Part shown: piece by piece, positions 33,494 to 63,341 of the stretch
Layout of the letters: the number at the start of each line of letters is the position of its first letter
How positions within the stretch are numbered: position 1 is the stretch's first letter
From: Lobulomyces angularis
Taxonomy: Eukaryota; Chytridiomycota; Chytridiomycetes; Lobulomycetales; Lobulomycetaceae
Length of the DNA: 63,455 nucleotides
Assembly (NCBI GenBank): GCA_027604685.1
Contig: JADHYX010000037.1
Span: forward strand, 1 to 63,455
Reading direction: 5' to 3'
Translations under genes and position numbers: made by a program
Notes under the pieces: model-generated
What the model saw: the letters and a program-made list of their open reading frames with translations, nothing else
Databases searched by the model: none
Told to the model about the DNA's origin: nothing

Positions 33494-35639
33494 ATGCCAT
33501 CAATGAAACCAAACAACTATAACAATACCCCTTCAGTTCAAAGTCAACAAGCAACCCAACAATTGATTAACAATTGGATGAAAGTTGCACCAAATACCCA
33601 AAAATCTGCTCCAAATGCTACCAAACCTGTCAGTCAAAACAAAGAGATTGACTCCTTGAAATCCCTTAACAAAGCTCAGTTTAGTGAAATTCAAGCTTTA
33701 AAAGCAGAGTTATTAAGAGAAAAAGCTGCTCGTGCAAGAATTGACACCAGAATCCAAGAAGTTGAAATGCAAATCAAACTTGGATCTCAACCTGTTCAAC
33801 AAAGACAAATAGTTCAAAAACCAGTTGCATCCAAAAATACCCCGGTTCTTAAGAACAATGTAATAAACAAAAATACCCCAGCTCCTATAAAGAATGGTCC
33901 AAGTAAACAAAATTCTTTAACTGGAACTAATTATACCCCTGCTCCTCAAAACAAACTTAAAAAACAAGCAAGCAATTCCTCTCCAGTAAAATCTACTGAT
34001 ATTTTGATAATTTTATATTTTAATTTCATAGGTATCTGGTGATTCTGTTTGGGAGAGTTTTTTCGAGGCCAAATCTCCTTCATCAGTTAAACCAACCTCT
34101 TCTGCTAAGGTCAATCCTACTTTTAGGTATATTAAATAAAATTCACAGAGGATGCTTACTTTTTTTTAAATTCAATAGACCAAAATCTGCTCAAAAAAAT
34201 AACAGCAACGGCCTAAGATCAAATTCACCAAAGTCCGATAAAGCTAATGGACTGTAAGCTAAAAACTTTTTAAACATTGCTAATTATATCTTATATAGAT
34301 CAAACTCAAATCCTAACTATGAAAACTACCTAAATCCATCAATGTTTGACTTACCTGAAAATTACATGAAATGTTTAAAACCTGCTTCACCTGTTCGCAG
34401 ATCCCCTGTTAACAAATCATCAAGTAAAGCTGAATCCCCTGTTAACAGCAAACCTGTAAGCAAAGCTCAATCTCCTATTAACAGTAAGCCTGCTCAACAA
34501 AAAATTAACACTGCACAAAATAACATCCAAAACAAATCGAAAGAAAAACAAGCGGCATCACCGTAAGAATTTTTTATTAACTATTTTATTTAAGTTTTTA
34601 AATTAGTTCCAGTGCCAATTATGAAGCATTCTTTGCACCTGCCCTATTTGATTTACCTGAAAGTTATTTAAAATCATTGCGCCCTGCATCTCCAGTTCAA
34701 AAATCTATGGTTACAGCTCAAAGACCAACTTCACCACAACAAAAACCAGCTTCACCACAACAAAAACTAGCAACTCCAGCATCTAAACCAATAGCTGCGG
34801 CTCAAAGACCAGCTTCACCACAACAAAAACTAGCAACTCCAGCATCTAAACCAATAGCTGCGGCTCAAAGACCAGCTTCACCACAACAAAAACTAGCTAC
34901 TCCAGCATCTAAACCAATAGCTGCGGCTCAAAGACCAGTTTCACCACAAGCAAAACCAATGGCTGCTGTTCAAAGACCAGCATCACCACAACAAAAACAA
35001 GCTACTTCAGCATCTAAACCAATAGCTGCTGCTCAAAGACCAGCTTCACCACAACCAAAACCAATGGCTGCTGCTCAAAAACCAGCTTCACCACAACCAA
35101 AACCAATGGCTGCTGCTCAAAAACCAGCTTCACCACAACAAAAACCAATAGCTGCCGCTCAAAAACCAGCATCACCACAACAAAAACTAGCTACTCCAGC
35201 ATCTAAACCAATACCTGCTGCTCAAAAACCAGTTTCACCACAAGCAAAACCAATGGCTGCTGTTCAAAGACCAGCATCACCACAACAAAAACTAGCTACT
35301 CCAGCCTCTAAACCAATACCTGCTCAAAAACCAGCTTCACCACAAGCAAAACCAATGGCTGTTGCTCAAAGACCAGCTTCTCCACAACAAAAACCAGCTT
35401 CACCACAACAAAAACAGGCTGCTCCTGCTAAAGCAGCGTCATCCAAACCTCAACAAAATGCACCTGCCAAAGCAACAAAACTCAACAGTCCAGTCGAAAA
35501 GTTAAATTCGCAGAAGACCGCTTTACCATCACAAAAACCTTTAAGTGCTCAATCCAATGTAAGTATTAATTACAGGCTTTCTTTTAACTAAAAAAATATT
35601 TTTCCAAAATTTTAGAAGTCAACTAAAGGAAAAAAATAA
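33494..35639 (+). CDS. Pro/Ala/Ser/Gln/Lys-rich repeat protein with duplicated FDLPE exons
   Basis: Unrecognised, basic and mostly disordered. Exon 1 encodes MPSMKPNNYNNTPSVQSQQA and a short predicted coiled coil (LKAELLREKAARARIDTRIQ, about residues 70-100). Exon 2 (about 34031) starts SGDSVWESFFEAKSPSS. Exon 4 (from about 34299) contains SMFDLPENYMKCLKPASP and exon 5 (from about 34607) contains ALFDLPESYLKSLRPASP, so these exons look duplicated. Exon 5 then runs into 21-residue repeats (PASPQQKLATPASKPIAAAQ). A last small exon gives KSTKGKK and a stop at 35637-35639. No signal peptide or membrane segment. A scaffold, cytoskeletal linker or nucleic-acid-binding role is possible; none is shown. 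The TATA box and simple composition suggest strong expression. Confidence 0.85.
34747..34941 (+). repeat. 63-base in-frame tandem repeat inside the repeat protein
   Basis: The anchor ctagc recurs at 34767, 34830 and 34893, exactly 63 bases apart, with only one or two substitutions between copies. More degenerate copies continue to about 35420. Each unit encodes 21 residues of the type QKLATPASKPIAAAQRPASP. Confidence 0.9.
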
Positions 35640-47567: not shown

Positions 47568-49774
47568 TTACCACAAGAATATTTCTTTAGTTAATGGTTT
47601 GGAATTAAAATTAAAAATGGGTTCGTTAAAACTAAATTTTTTAAAGTAAAATCCTATTTCAACTTCTAGACCTCCACAAAATTTTTCCCAATTGTCTAAT
47701 ATTTCAATTTCAAAATCTAAACAAAAATATATTTATATGTAAATATTTAAATTTTTAAAAAAAAAAAGTTTTTTTTTTTTTTATTTTTACTTAGAAGCTG
47801 TAAAAATTCCCACTCTTTTTTTTTAAAATCAGTGAGGGAAATAACAAAAAAATGTGAAGCAAAGTCGCAAAAGTTGCTGATATCAAATATGTCATCATTT
47901 AAACTTTTTTGTGCCATCATAAAGAGTATTAGAACAGTTAAAAAAACGTCGTCAACGGTTTCAAGGGTGCAAAGAAAGTGTTTTTTTGTCAAAAGAATTT
48001 TTTTAAGGAAGTAAAGTGACTTAATTAGGGAGGTCAAGTTTGTGGTAGACCAAATGCTTGTTAATTTTGAAATAAAGTACTTTAATTTTATCTGGTTATC
48101 CAAGTAGTAAGATTGGTTAGTTTTTAACTCCTGGAAATACTGTGGAAATTGTTGAATTACAGCCTGCACATAGTATTCTATTAAATTGTCTTTCAAACTG
48201 ATAAAGGTTTCTTTATTTTCAATGCCGTACGACATTTCTTCACAAGAAGTTGAATTAGGTGCTGGATTGCTAATAAAACTATAAAAAAAAAGGAAAATTT
48301 TAAAAAAAAAATAAAAAAATTAGCTTACTTTTCTTCAATATCAATGGTATTTGGTTCACTCAAGTCACTCAAACTACTAAGATCATCATTTGACTGAAAT
48401 GGGCTAGAATCATTAACTAGGGTAATATTACTAAACTCTTCGTTTTCTTTAGTAATAACTCTTTTTTTGCTCTCTTTCATTTCTGCTGCATGGTTTAGGT
48501 CATCCATACTACTATTATTATTTAAAATAGTATAAAAATAAAAAAATTAATTTTAATAATAAAAAAAAAAAAAGTAAAATAAAAAAATAAAAATGAAATA
48601 ATTCCTACTCTTTTCTAATTTTAAACCGATTTTTTACATTTTGTTTAATTAAGATGCTAGTAAAATATAAAAATAAAATTTAAAAAAAAATAAAAATTAA
48701 CTTACTCTTCTTCAAATTCTTTTATTCTCAATAAGAGAATACCATTTTCATTTTCTAATTTTTGAGTTCTATTTAATTTTAACAAAAGGATCCTATTTTC
48801 CTCTTCCAAATCTTGAACTCTATTTAACTTTATTAAAAGTTCCTTATTTTCAACTTCGATAGCTTGAGTTCTATTTAATTTTAACAAAAGAATCCTATTT
48901 TCTTCTTCCAAATCTTGAACTCTATTTAACTTTCTTAGAAGTTCCCTATTTTCAACTTCAAACTCTTGGGCTCTATCCAACTTTAATAAAAGATTCTTAT
49001 TTTCTTCTTTGAAATCTTGAGCTCTATTTAACTTTCTTAAAAGGTCTCTATTTTCAACTTCCAAATCTTTAACTCTATTAAACTTTGACAAAATTTCTCT
49101 ATTTTCATCTTCTAAATCTTTAACTTTATTTTTTAAATTTGAAACTTTATCATAACCACTTTATATACTTGTTAAGGTTATATTCCAAATTAGAAATTTT
49201 TTTTAAATTAAATTTAAACTGCCTATTTCTATACAGACTTTGGATATTTTCAAAACAGAGGTTAAATGCCTTGTCAATGAGATTTTCAATGTATTGGAGC
49301 AAAAAAAGCTCTTTGGATTTGTAAATAAAAAAAAATTAAAATAAAGATAAAAAATTGTAAAACCTTTTGGAGATTTGATTACTTTCAGATTTATAGTGTC
49401 AGAGTTGAGAAAGGCAATGATTTTAACGATTTTACCATTGTGGTTTAGTTGGAGTGAAATTTTATTTGAATTTTTTTTGTTCTTTTTTTGTTTTTTTACT
49501 GATTCTTCAATAATCTGAGTTAAATTATTGATTTTCTAGTGAAGTTACAACAAAAAAAAAAAAAAAAAAAAAAGTAGAGAGAAAACAATTGTTTTCTGTT
49601 TATTTTTATTCTAAATACCTCCAGTTGTTCAAATACACAAAAAGCATTTAATTCGTAGGTCTCTACGATGTCGACATAAAACTCACTTTCGTAATCATAT
49701 GATTGAAAAACTTGAGTAAATTGATTAAACTTTCTATGATAGTCTAGCAAAGCCTTTGGAACAAAACCCAACAT
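47568..49774 (-). CDS. Coiled-coil repeat protein with C-terminal cyclin-like domain
   Basis: Not matched to a named family as a whole. From 49774: MLGFVPKALLDYHRKFNQFT; an exon with SLQLNHNGKIVKIIAFLNSD; then ELFLLQYIENLIDKAFNLCF. After the intron at about 49130-49175 comes a long coiled coil made of at least seven 17-residue repeats (LNRVQDLEEENRILLLK and variants). A Ser/Asp-rich linker follows (NDDLSSLSDLSEPNTIDIEE). The C-terminal exon has a cyclin-box-like helix set: KKHFLCTLETVDDVFLTVLI, LFMMAQKSLNDDIFD, FASHFFVISLTDFKKKEWEF and LQLL..FEIEIL, like the Pho80/PCL-type 'A.K...D......W......L...E...L..L.F...V'. A last exon ends LTKEIFLW. The exon joins between these parts are consistent, so I read one gene. 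A CDK-partner role is inference. Confidence 0.65.
48715..49130 (-). repeat. 51-base in-frame tandem repeat (17 residues), about seven to eight copies
   Basis: The protein unit is L-N-R-x-Q-D-L-E-x-E-N-R-x-L-L-x-K. Copies at the edges are the most diverged and central ones the most alike. Alternate copies resemble each other more (RVQDLEEENRILLLK recurs twice), suggesting a past 102-base duplication. Confidence 0.9.
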
Positions 49775-53705: not shown

Positions 53706-55461
53706 ATGAAACTAGAGTTAACTTTTTTGATCCTCATATTTGCGATACTTCAGTTGACCTCGACTTCACCATTAATAAAAAGAAAAATTAATAAAGTACA
53801 GTGTGGTTCGAATTCTACAAAATGTCCTACTTCTCTTTCGGATTTAATGGATCGTCAAAAGATTAATGGTAATTCCTTTTTTCTTTTTTTTTACAATTTT
53901 TATTTTTATTTTTTAAGATAGCGATTGTTGCTGTTTACAAGGAACTAAACCAACTTCTGGTTTAAACTGTGAAAAACCTTTTCAGTTGAAAAGTGTTGAA
54001 AAAGAGAAACAGGAAAAAACAAAAAAAAAAAATCCAAAAACAACCTCAATAAAATCTACCATGACAACCTCAATTAAATCTACTAAAACAACCTCAGTGA
54101 AATCTACCAAAACATCCTCATCTCTCTCCAGTGCTATATCTACCCCTTCTTCTTCGGATGGTTTTAAAACTGCTTATGCTACTTTTCATTCTTATCAGTT
54201 GAATCAAGGAGTCACCAGGTTTTTTTTTTTATTGAAATTTCATTTTTTTTAAAATTTTTTTATTATTAAAAGTTTGGCTTGTAGTGATAAGTTTACACCA
54301 AAAGGAATTTGGTCATTATCAAATTTAAAAGTTACTGCATTTAATGTTGGTACAAATCCTGAAACTGGAAGAGGTAAAAAAAAAAAAAAAAAAGAAATTT
54401 AAAAAAATTAATAAAATTAATATAAAAATAGTAAATTGTGGAAAGTGTCTAGAAGTGAAATCAGCTACAACATCCAATAGAGAATACATTACAATTATTG
54501 ATGGAGATGGAAAGATACCAGGATATGATTTTCACCTGGATTTATCACCAGATTCATTCAATTATTTACTTGGAGAAAAAGGTGTTCAAAACGGACATGG
54601 GCTAGTTGATTTTAGATTTGTTGATGAGTCGTATTGTACCCCTTTTAAATCCTCCACTACTGTCTCCAGCACTACTTCAGCATCGGGTAGTACAGCAACT
54701 CAAACACCACCAATATCTGATGCAAGTTGTATGAAAAGTTACATCGTAAAAAGCGGAGATATTGGAGTTTCCATTGCAGCAGCAAATCAGATAACTTTTG
54801 ATGAACTGAGTAGGATAAATCCAAATTTAGTTTGGACAAATTTAAAAATTGGACAAATTTTATGTGTAAAAAAGACCTTAAACACTAGCAGTACAATTGA
54901 AAACACTAATAGTGACGGTAAAAAGGTTTTACATAGCAATTTTGATGTCAACAAAAATATTACTGGATTTGGAACATATTATTATGACTACTTGAACAAT
55001 GTTTGTCCTAATGAAGCTTATGATACATATCCTGAAAATAAAGGGATAACAACATGGTAAATAAATAAAAATAATAAAAATACAAAGTTATAAAAAAAAT
55101 TTTTTTGCAACAAATTAATAGTGAGACTTATGATTCAACTAGTCCTATGTATAAAACAACATTAGGATCTCGAAAGAGTAATTATATAGTTGCGATATCA
55201 GATATAATTTTGAACAAGGATAGAGCAAAGTATTGTGGAAAAAAAGTTAATATAAAGTATAATGGAAAGTTGGTTGAAACTGAGAAACCATTTTTTGTTT
55301 GGGATGGATGCGGAGCATGTACAAACGTGAAGCAGCCTAGAATTGACCTTTCATTGAGTGCATTACAAAACATCGCAGGTGAAAAAGCCTGTGCTGATGG
55401 TGTTGTTGAAGGTTTTACATGGGAAGTGGTGGATGAAGTCGTTTTTCCATTTATTCCATAA
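53706..55461 (+). CDS. Secreted protein with two double-psi beta-barrel domains flanking a LysM domain
   Basis: Predicted extracellular wall-binding protein. Residues 1-21 (MKLELTFLILIFAILQLTST) are a signal peptide. A Cys-rich segment follows (SDCCCLQGTKPTSGLNCEKP), then a Lys/Thr/Ser linker with short repeats (TTSIKSTKTTSVKST). Barrel 1 runs from AYATFHSYQLNQGVTS through GRVNCGKCLEVKSATTSN and IIDGDG to DLSPDSFNYLLGEKG and VDFRFVDESYC, in the barwin/expansin/RlpA style. A Thr/Ser linker precedes the LysM (SYIVKSGDIGVSIAAANQIT, FDELSRINPNL, LKIGQILCVKK; about 54735-54870), a chitin/peptidoglycan-type binding module. Barrel 2 starts GFGTYYYDYLNNVCP and has VWDGCGACTNVKQPRIDLSL and ALQNIAGEKA, ending FPFIP. 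Introns join in frame, e.g. GITTC-ETYDSTSPMY at about 55058-55110. No glycoside-hydrolase active site is evident. Confidence 0.9.
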
Positions 55462-61522: not shown

Positions 61523-63341
61523 ATGTTAAAAAAAGAAGAAGAAACAAGAATAAAAAATATAGAAGCTGTGACGAATTTTGAAAAACTAAAAAACGAACAA
61601 GATTTAAAAAAAAAAAACTTATTGATTAAAGAAACTTTGGAAAAGGAAAACCTTGCCTTTGAAAAAGCTAAAATTTTAAAAGTATTTGAATTAAAAATAA
61701 AAAAAAAATTTTTTTTTTTTTTATCATTAATTTCCTATTTTTTTTTTTTTTTTTAAAAAGACAAAGTTGGAAGAGGAAGAAAAAAAAAAAGATGCAGAAA
61801 AAATGGAGAAGGAAAGGTTAGCAGAAGAAAAGAGATTGGTAAAAAAAAAAAAAAAGTACTAATATATATAATATTAAAAAAAAAATTAAAAAAAAAATTA
61901 GGAACAAATAAGACAACAAAATGAAAAGATGAAGAGATTTGAAGAGTTAAAGGAAAAAGAAAGGATGAGACAACTAGAGGAAAAAAAAAAGTTGGATAGT
62001 GAGCGGGAAAAGGAAGCCTTTTTGAAGCAGGTTCGTGCAAAAAAATTGAAGTTGGAATCAGATTTAAAAAAAGTTGAGGAAGAAAATTTAAAAAAGTTAC
62101 AAGAGGAAAAAATTAGAGAAGAGAGGTTAATTAAGCAACGAAAAATTATGCAGAGGTTTGAAGAAGATCAAAGACTTAAAGTACAGAAACATAAATAAAT
62201 ATATTTATTTTTTTTTAATGTTGAATTTTTTTTATTTTATTTTTTTTTATTCAAGATGATGTCTCCAGAGGAAAGAGCACATATTTTGGCAAAACGTGAA
62301 GAGAGTGATCGAGCAGAGAAAGAAGCAGAGGAAGCGAAACTAAGAGCAGAGAAGGAAGCAGAGGAAGCGAAACTAAGAGCAGAAAAAGAAGCAGAGGAAG
62401 CGAAACTAAGAGCAGAAAAAGAAGCAGAGGAAGCTAGATTAAAAGCAGAGAGAGTCGCTGAGGAAGCTCAATTAAAGATTAAAAGAGAAGCAGAAAAAGT
62501 AGAAATTAGATCTCAAAAAGAAGCTCAAGAAAAGTATAAACTTGAAAAAGAGGAAATTTTAAAAGGAGAAAAAAAAACATCAGGCACTAATAATTTACCT
62601 TTAGAATTAAATAAAAATTTAAATGACAATACTACCACCTTCACAATGGTTGGCGAAAAAGAGCTCCCACCAGTGGAAAAGGAATTACCATTGATAGAAA
62701 AAGAATTACCAAAGGTAGAGTTATCAACTGAAGACCTTGAAAAATTTGAAAAGCGAAAGCTGGTATTGCAACAAAAAAAAGAAAAATTTCAGCAAGATTT
62801 AGAAATCAAGGAAAGATTAAAGTTTAACCAACGATTGGAAAAGGAATTGATTGAAAAAGAAAAACTAAAAAGAGATAAAGAAACTCTGGAAGATAAAAAC
62901 CTACAAGAATTACCAGCAATTCCGTACCTATCAGAGGAAGATTTGGAAAGAGTAACCACCATTCAACCTGAACCAATTTTTGAACCTGAGATGAATGAAA
63001 AAAAAAATTTAAGTATACTAACGGATAAACCCGTTTTAAGAATGGATGAAAAAACAATAAAAAGTGACATAGAAAAATTATTTGATGTAAAAAGAAAAAA
63101 AAGAATTTTTTTTTTTTAATTTAATTTTTTTTTTTTTTTATAGGATGAAGAAGTAAGATCCAGAACATTAACCGGAGTCGAATTACCAAAAAATGGAACA
63201 GAAGGAATTTACAGCGAATTAGGAGAAAAACTAGGATTGGAAACACTACCCCGAGCTTTTCCTACTGGTGAAAACACCACTAGGGAAGTAAAAATTAAAA
63301 AAGAAAATACCGCTTCGTGTTGTGGATGTAATATTATGTAA
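61523..63341 (+). CDS. Glu/Lys/Ala coiled-coil protein with C-terminal CaaX prenylation box
   Basis: Unrecognised long coiled-coil protein. Exons: MLKKEEETRIKNIEAVTNFE from 61523; KLEEEEKKKDAEKMEKERLA (about 61760-61840); a long helical exon with KRFEELKEKERMRQLEEKKK; then MMSPEERAHILAKREESDRA (from about 62256) with four 11-residue units AEKEAEEAKLR. A Pro/Glu/Leu segment has KELPPVEKELPLIEKELPKV (about 62660-62720) and a second coiled coil. The last exon, after a donor at about 63087, encodes DEEVRSRTLTGVELPKNG and ends TASCCGCNIM, so CNIM is a CaaX box (Met favours farnesyl) preceded by Cys residues suited to palmitoylation. Predicted to be a membrane-tethered rod. The start is the first ATG of the coiled-coil frame; an upstream exon is possible. 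Donor/acceptor joins are in phase. Confidence 0.75.
62311..62450 (+). repeat. 33-base in-frame tandem repeat, four copies
   Basis: The unit agagcagagaaagaagcaga recurs at about 62311, 62343, 62376 and 62409 (33-base period), encoding AEKEAEEAKLR, an 11-residue (hendecad) helix period. A fifth copy at about 62442 is diverged. Confidence 0.9.

Follow-up and report, generated by a model that had tools for sequence, protein, structure and literature searches.

A chytrid protein joining a barwin-like barrel, a LysM module and a second, predicted double-psi barrel without a Pfam family on one chain

The Volvox carteri protein named "chitinase, lysozyme" (O65213; P0002–P0004 in our searches) holds two LysM modules (PDB 5yz6 and 5k2l), and outside them it matches no Pfam family over the cut-off. 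In plants, class I PR-4 proteins consist of a hevein and a barwin domain, and therefore join a chitin-binding module to a barwin barrel; fungal LysM effectors are defined by having the LysM as their sole recognised domain. GH45 and GH75 share the double-psi barrel, with an acidic proton donor that is conserved among carbohydrate-active barrels and with a base Asp near the N-terminus (PMC9485262; this and the other papers are cited from excerpts). In domain 1 of expansins, the donor and a Thr (in a TWY or TFY motif) are kept, while the base is absent (PMC9888185). Expansin-like proteins with carbohydrate-binding modules have also been described in rumen anaerobic fungi, which the paper places in Chytridiomycota (PMC12632131). 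Here, we describe a gene from the chytrid Lobulomyces angularis (contig JADHYX010000037.1 of assembly GCA_027604685.1; the whole stretch of 63,455 nucleotides analysed is called the window), whose product carries a barwin-like barrel (barrel 1), a LysM and a second, predicted double-psi barrel (barrel 2), in this order. The protein is a new arrangement of known modules plus one domain without a family.

An earlier note, made from the DNA letters, had proposed this single chain of barrel, LysM and barrel with linkers of Thr, Ser and Lys. The proposal is borne out by the sequence, the splicing and the Pfam matches, and every motif quoted in it is present. The strongest case for one chain is the continuity of exon 4, which codes for residues 189–396 without a stop, including more than half of barrel 1, within an open frame of 243 aa (54329–55060). 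The alternative of two separate genes was rejected because of this exon, as it covers parts of both barrels and the entire LysM; it is also unlikely because an identical module order is found in the deposited protein HK099_008487 (P0001, 461 aa) of Clydaea vesicula, a chytrid of the order Lobulomycetales. The near identity of the two products points to C. vesicula or a close relative as the probable source of the genome. P0001 begins only at the internal Met that is residue 48 of the window product, and consequently lacks the hydrophobic N-terminus and the putative signal peptide. The window gene, for its part, would use the longer start.

The splice pattern was deduced from the DNA letters and from the agreement with P0001. 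All four introns (49, 54, 58, and 65 nt) begin with GT and end with AG, and their pooled guanine-plus-cytosine (GC) content is 9% versus 33% for the exons, in an AT-rich contig of 27% GC. In-frame stops are found inside introns 2, 3, and 4, and intron 1, with its 49 nt, would put the following exons out of frame if retained. An acceptor for intron 2 located 12 nt further 3' was rejected; with the AG upstream of it, the product gains four residues (LACS), agrees with the deposited protein, and has its whole-chain Barwin score raised from 24.9 to 33.4 bits. The whole-protein search and the structure searches with the chain alone used, for barrel 1, the version lacking these four residues.

For barrel 2, Pfam offers no match at expectation values (E) up to 10, whether to GH45 (PF02015), GH75, DPBB_1 or any other family. 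Its model is predicted to be a double-psi barrel, the fold of expansin domain 1, loosenins, GH45, GH75, and the papain inhibitor, and it resembles expansin domain 1 and the papain inhibitor, and more weakly GH75 and GH45. Unlike expansins, with their domain 1–domain 2 (CBM63) layout, the chain stops after barrel 2, lacks a domain 2 and has no expansin match in Pfam. The region search with barrel 2 (149 candidates scored, five rows) connects it to the C-terminal domain of Volvox P0002 (50% identity, E 4e-27). Both proteins hold a LysM followed by this barrel, with six Cys and three candidate acids in common; however, the Volvox protein has two LysMs and neither a barwin-like barrel nor an N-terminal Cys module, and the basis of its chitinase label was not seen. 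The relatives of barrel 2 come from Volvox, Rhizoclosmatium (P0009), and Chlamydomonas incerta, together with a metagenome protein (P0006), where the barrel lies beside a GH18 domain and which, as a guess, may be algal. Another one is a paralogue in the same genome (contig C163, 599–1884, L022), which follows a long stretch rich in Lys, Ser, and Thr and has no other recognised domain.

The alignment of seven barrel-2 sequences has 31 invariant columns, among them all six Cys. In a tree of these sequences (unrooted, LG+G4, 200 bootstraps), which gives neither a direction nor a choice between transfer and common descent, the two Volvox rows, C. incerta, and P0006 group together at 93%, with the three chytrid rows outside. 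As for viruses and prokaryotes, 30 pattern matches were obtained in each of viral_contigs and genome_contigs, and tblastn confirmed none of them as kin of barrel 2. Foldseek against viral models returned nothing at E 0.001 or better, in a list that includes LysM proteins. The same list holds, at E 0.032 over 142 columns, Q84565 (BFVD) from the Chlorella virus PBCV-1, annotated as "Barwin domain-containing protein"; a barrel encoded by a virus of algae could be relevant to the link between algae and chytrids.

The candidate active site of barrel 2 can be read from its motifs. In GH45, the base stands four residues after the equivalent Thr. Barrel 2 reads T-Y-Y-Y-D at residues 370–374 and holds D472 inside the motif IDLSLS, and T370, D374, D458, and D472 are invariant in the seven sequences. 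By motif reading, this Thr and the three Asp positions resemble the site of GH45 and GH75. Barrel 1, with D225 within HLDLS and a Tyr four residues past T143, has only the conserved Thr and a donor-like Asp, and no base-like Asp. The Thr-Asp pair of expansin domain 1, loosenins, GH45, and GH75 appears, by motif, in both barrels, and the base-like Asp in barrel 2. Since this Asp separates the two, barrel 2 may have enzymatic activity, with barrel 1 serving as a binder of the loosening type.

Barrel 1 matches the Barwin family (PF00967) with 36.5 bits as a domain alone and 33.4 bits in the whole chain (cut-off 21). Plant barwin holds six cysteines; because barrel 1 has four, in the pattern C(32)CxxC(62)C, it is named barwin-like here and not filed as barwin. 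Its Cys layout is that of the cerato-platanins, C(38)CxxC(54)C (PMC4024134), with different gaps (32/62 versus 38/54), and it has no match to PF07249 at E up to 10. A two-row profile made of barrel 1 and a paralogue on contig C108 found cerato-platanins as the best solved structures (E 5.9e-7), in matches partly owed to the C108 row, with barwin at 1.7e-5. With the chain alone, in its shorter splice version, barrel 1 obtains weak structure matches, with sugarwin at E 0.081, papaya barwin at 0.17, and barwin at 0.5. The fold prediction suggested in the earlier note gave models for the LysM and for barrel 2; for barrel 1, the predicted local distance difference test (pLDDT) was low, with blocks of about 22–33 (seven sequences) and 25–52 (two sequences), so that the fold of barrel 1 rests on its sequence. 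RlpA/DPBB_1 (PF03330) is absent from both barrels at E up to 10, and a scan of the single exons of the genome gives no match to it at E up to 0.1. A comparison of the profiles of the two barrels showed no relation (E 0.12), and the description of the barrels as different from each other holds: barrel 1 is barwin/cerato-platanin-like, and Pfam has no model for the family of barrel 2.

The C108 paralogue (777–1535, L023) is a stand-alone chytrid cerato-platanin in its own right (PF07249, 57.5–59.5 bits, cut-off 24.4). It is 36% identical to barrel 1, and its first Cys gap (38) is that of the family pattern. In an alignment where it could pair with either barrel, the C108 barrel was placed on barrel 2, a result to which no weight is given. 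A 2014 review, in the part cited here, gave the cerato-platanin family as occurring only in hyphal or pseudohyphal fungi (PMC4024134).

The LysM scores 35.6 bits against PF01476 (cut-off 20.9), and its predicted model shows the beta-alpha-alpha-beta fold. Superposed on the LysM of an Equisetum chitinase, the model has a template modelling score (TMt) of 0.91 and a root-mean-square deviation of 0.8 (Foldseek E 0.0014). Both in sequence and in structure, the nearest matches are LysMs from fern, horsetail, and Volvox chitinases, with the effector Ecp6 ranked lower. Fungal LysM effectors, which had been brought in for comparison, are therefore not the closest ones. With Ecp6-type effectors, the window protein shares a LysM and probable secretion, but its LysM is nearer to those of plant and algal chitinases, and the chain has further domains, including the Barwin match.

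Regarding the occurrence of this architecture, the whole-protein search gave eight rows from the best 7993 candidates, and only P0001 from Clydaea holds all three modules; its precomputed Pfam tags are LysM and Barwin, and its barrel 2 is untagged. The barrel-1 region search (54 candidates) returned no chain besides P0001. As these searches reach only relatives with shared exact words and 0.55–1.75 times the length, absence elsewhere is weak evidence. Within this reach, the combination of LysM and barrel 2 on one chain was already known from Volvox, and the addition of a barwin-like barrel is seen only in Clydaea. No description of the order barrel-LysM-barrel was found in the titles and the first parts of the abstracts of open-licence PMC papers. 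Among related architectures, plant class I PR-4 proteins also join a chitin binder to a barwin barrel, but with hevein instead of LysM, a single barrel, and in plants. The rumen-fungus proteins similarly join an expansin-type barrel to a carbohydrate-binding module; however, they are YoaJ-type, one with CBM_10, and the searched text contains neither the word "LysM" nor the word "barwin" (PMC12632131).

On balance, we lean towards a wall protein that is directed at chitin and probably secreted, in which one barrel is of the loosening type and the other possibly hydrolytic. The LysM would bind polymers of N-acetylglucosamine (GlcNAc), keeping the chain on chitin, and flexible, perhaps O-glycosylated Thr/Ser linkers would let two unlike barrels act on one surface. 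Barrel 1, which has the Thr-Asp pair but lacks the base, would attach to chains and loosen them but would not cut them, whereas barrel 2 may cut beta-1,4 bonds or serve as a second binder. The likeliest target would be the chitin wall of the fungus itself, in growth or spore release. Chitin is suggested as the target because of the LysM, the two LysMs of the Volvox protein, the GH18 domain of P0006, and the chitin binding of cerato-platanins and loosenins (PMC9888185 for the latter). The idea that the barrels clamp a glycan binder, as the earlier note had put it, was a guess, given linkers of 16–58 residues.

Other observations do not favour chitin as the target. The barrel-2 relatives P0005, P0009, and the C163 paralogue hold no recognised chitin module. 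Loosenins, according to the excerpt, did not substantially boost chitinase (PMC9888185), and cerato-platanins, as far as the cited part goes, had not been found binding fungal walls (PMC4024134). Two further points count against the reading of barrel 2 as an enzyme and barrel 1 as a loosening-type binder: loosenins gave no release from the tested substrates (PMC9888185), and the V-Csn paper states that the papain inhibitor and kiwellin also carry an N-terminal acid (PMC9485262). In a more specific and tentative form, to which we give rather little credence, barrel 2 would be the catalytic domain of an unclassified inverting GH45/GH75-like hydrolase family, with chitin or a related polymer of GlcNAc as its substrate. 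This family would be common to chytrids and volvocine green algae, perhaps exchanged between them, and fused in the window protein, through the LysM, to a barwin-like barrel that loosens and does not hydrolyse, resulting in one chain that both loosens and cuts.

Other explanations have been considered. Both barrels could be carbohydrate binders, like LysM effectors and cerato-platanins, in a non-catalytic protein that binds chitin or its fragments and hides fungal chitin or coats the wall. Cerato-platanin has been described as non-catalytic and its family binds chitin (PMC5444802, PMC4024134); loosenins had no lytic activity (PMC9888185). Nevertheless, this binder is unlikely: D374, four residues past the conserved Thr, is kept in all seven barrel-2 sequences and is absent in barrel 1 and, reportedly, in expansin domain 1, and no host is established. 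We consider it improbable that the protein is a chitin-anchored protease inhibitor, where the LysM sits on chitin and cysteine or serine proteases are blocked by one barrel or by both, in the manner of the papain inhibitor from Streptomyces and the fungal protein RsRlpA. The score against the NCBIfam papain-inhibitor family (NF041659) is 18.3 bits, with a cut-off of 150, and the relatives of barrel 2 are joined to LysM (Volvox) and to GH18 (P0006). Finally, a chance or annotation fusion of two adjacent genes is hardly credible. Although the five-exon model was made by eye, exon 4 is one open frame through barrel 1, LysM, and barrel 2, the deposited C. vesicula protein shows the same chain, and in Volvox, too, a single chain carries LysM together with barrel 2. 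The features of the gene are listed in Table 1.

Table 1. Positions of the gene and its features in the window
Feature	Position (nt)	Strand	Residues	Remarks
Whole gene, five exons	53706..55461	+	509 aa	ATG at 53706, final stop-codon base at 55461; read from the DNA; agrees with deposited P0001 except for the start, 2 substitutions and a gap of one residue
Exons	53706-53868, 53918-54218, 54273-54373, 54432-55056, 55122-55461	+		
Likely signal peptide	53706..53765	+	~1-20	Putative cleavage site, with KR after it as a possible processing site; the 12-residue window starting at residue 3 is the most hydrophobic one in the chain
N-terminal Cys module	53766..53982	+	21-76	C33, C40, C58, C59, C60, C72; holds intron 53869-53917
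Linker 1	53983..54156	+	77-134	48% Ser+Thr, 22% Lys
Barrel 1	54157..54640	+	135-258	PF00967; introns 54219-54272 and 54374-54431; Cys 158/191/194/257; T143, D212, D225
Exon 4, single open frame	54432..55056	+		Barrel 1 from residue 189, linker 2, LysM, linker 3, first 44 residues of barrel 2
Linker 2	54641..54724	+	259-286	54% Ser+Thr
LysM	54725..54874	+	287-336	PF01476; Pfam span 292-335 (54740-54871)
Linker 3	54875..54922	+	337-352	44% Ser+Thr
Barrel 2	54923..55458	+	353-509	Intron 55057-55121; Cys 380/397/435/460/463/487; T370, D374, D458, D472
T370 codon	54974-54976	+	370	Conserved Thr
D374 codon	54986-54988	+	374	Third candidate acid
D458 codon to D472 codon	55303-55305 to 55345-55347	+	458, 472	Two candidate active-site acids, putative function

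The N-terminal module with six Cys had been missed in the earlier list of modules. A weak look-alike of it is present on contig C365 (E 0.047, 30% identity). The sub-threshold whole-chain Pfam rows Zn_ribbon_12 (E 0.008) and Zona_CL2 (E 0.036) were taken as chance. On the minus strand of C365 (5500–11500, L027), there are pieces that resemble CBM18, GH18, a Ser/Thr linker, a barrel-like part with HFDVDTDTFNYL, and, at the terminus, a Cys module that contains a CCC triplet and is similar to the N-terminal module of the window protein. As a GH18-barrel-Cys-module gene, this locus is no more than a lead; exon by exon, GH18 scores 12.2 bits (cut-off 29.6) and Chitin_bind_1 24.6 bits (cut-off 27.8), and the barrel-like part has no Pfam or PDB support.

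In the rest of the genome, the LysM search gave nine exon-level matches on five contigs. Five open frames were scanned (four LysM sites on other contigs and the C108 barrel), two of which (C38 and C338; L009, L010) have GH18 and Chitin_bind_1 over the cut-offs and appear, unspliced, to be GH18 chitinases with LysM exons (three matches per contig). In a further locus (C67, 871–1440, L011), which may encode a surface LysM protein, the LysM precedes a Thr/Ser segment and a likely transmembrane helix. Elsewhere in the window, an open frame at 34602–35588 contains many copies of a repeat rich in Pro, Ala, Lys, and Gln, and those at 62199–63116 (+) and 48705–49160 (−) contain short charged repeats, probably forming coiled coils.

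The gene ties a fungus to a Volvox protein that is named a chitinase, and whose non-LysM part has no Pfam family over the cut-off. The three invariant Asp residues of barrel 2 provide a direct handle on whether this domain is an enzyme, and the fusion itself offers a natural comparison, on one chain, between a barrel without and a barrel with a base-like Asp. Should barrel 2 prove to cut chitin, it could give its name to a new family of hydrolases with the double-psi barrel fold; otherwise, the chitinase label of the Volvox protein would need another basis.
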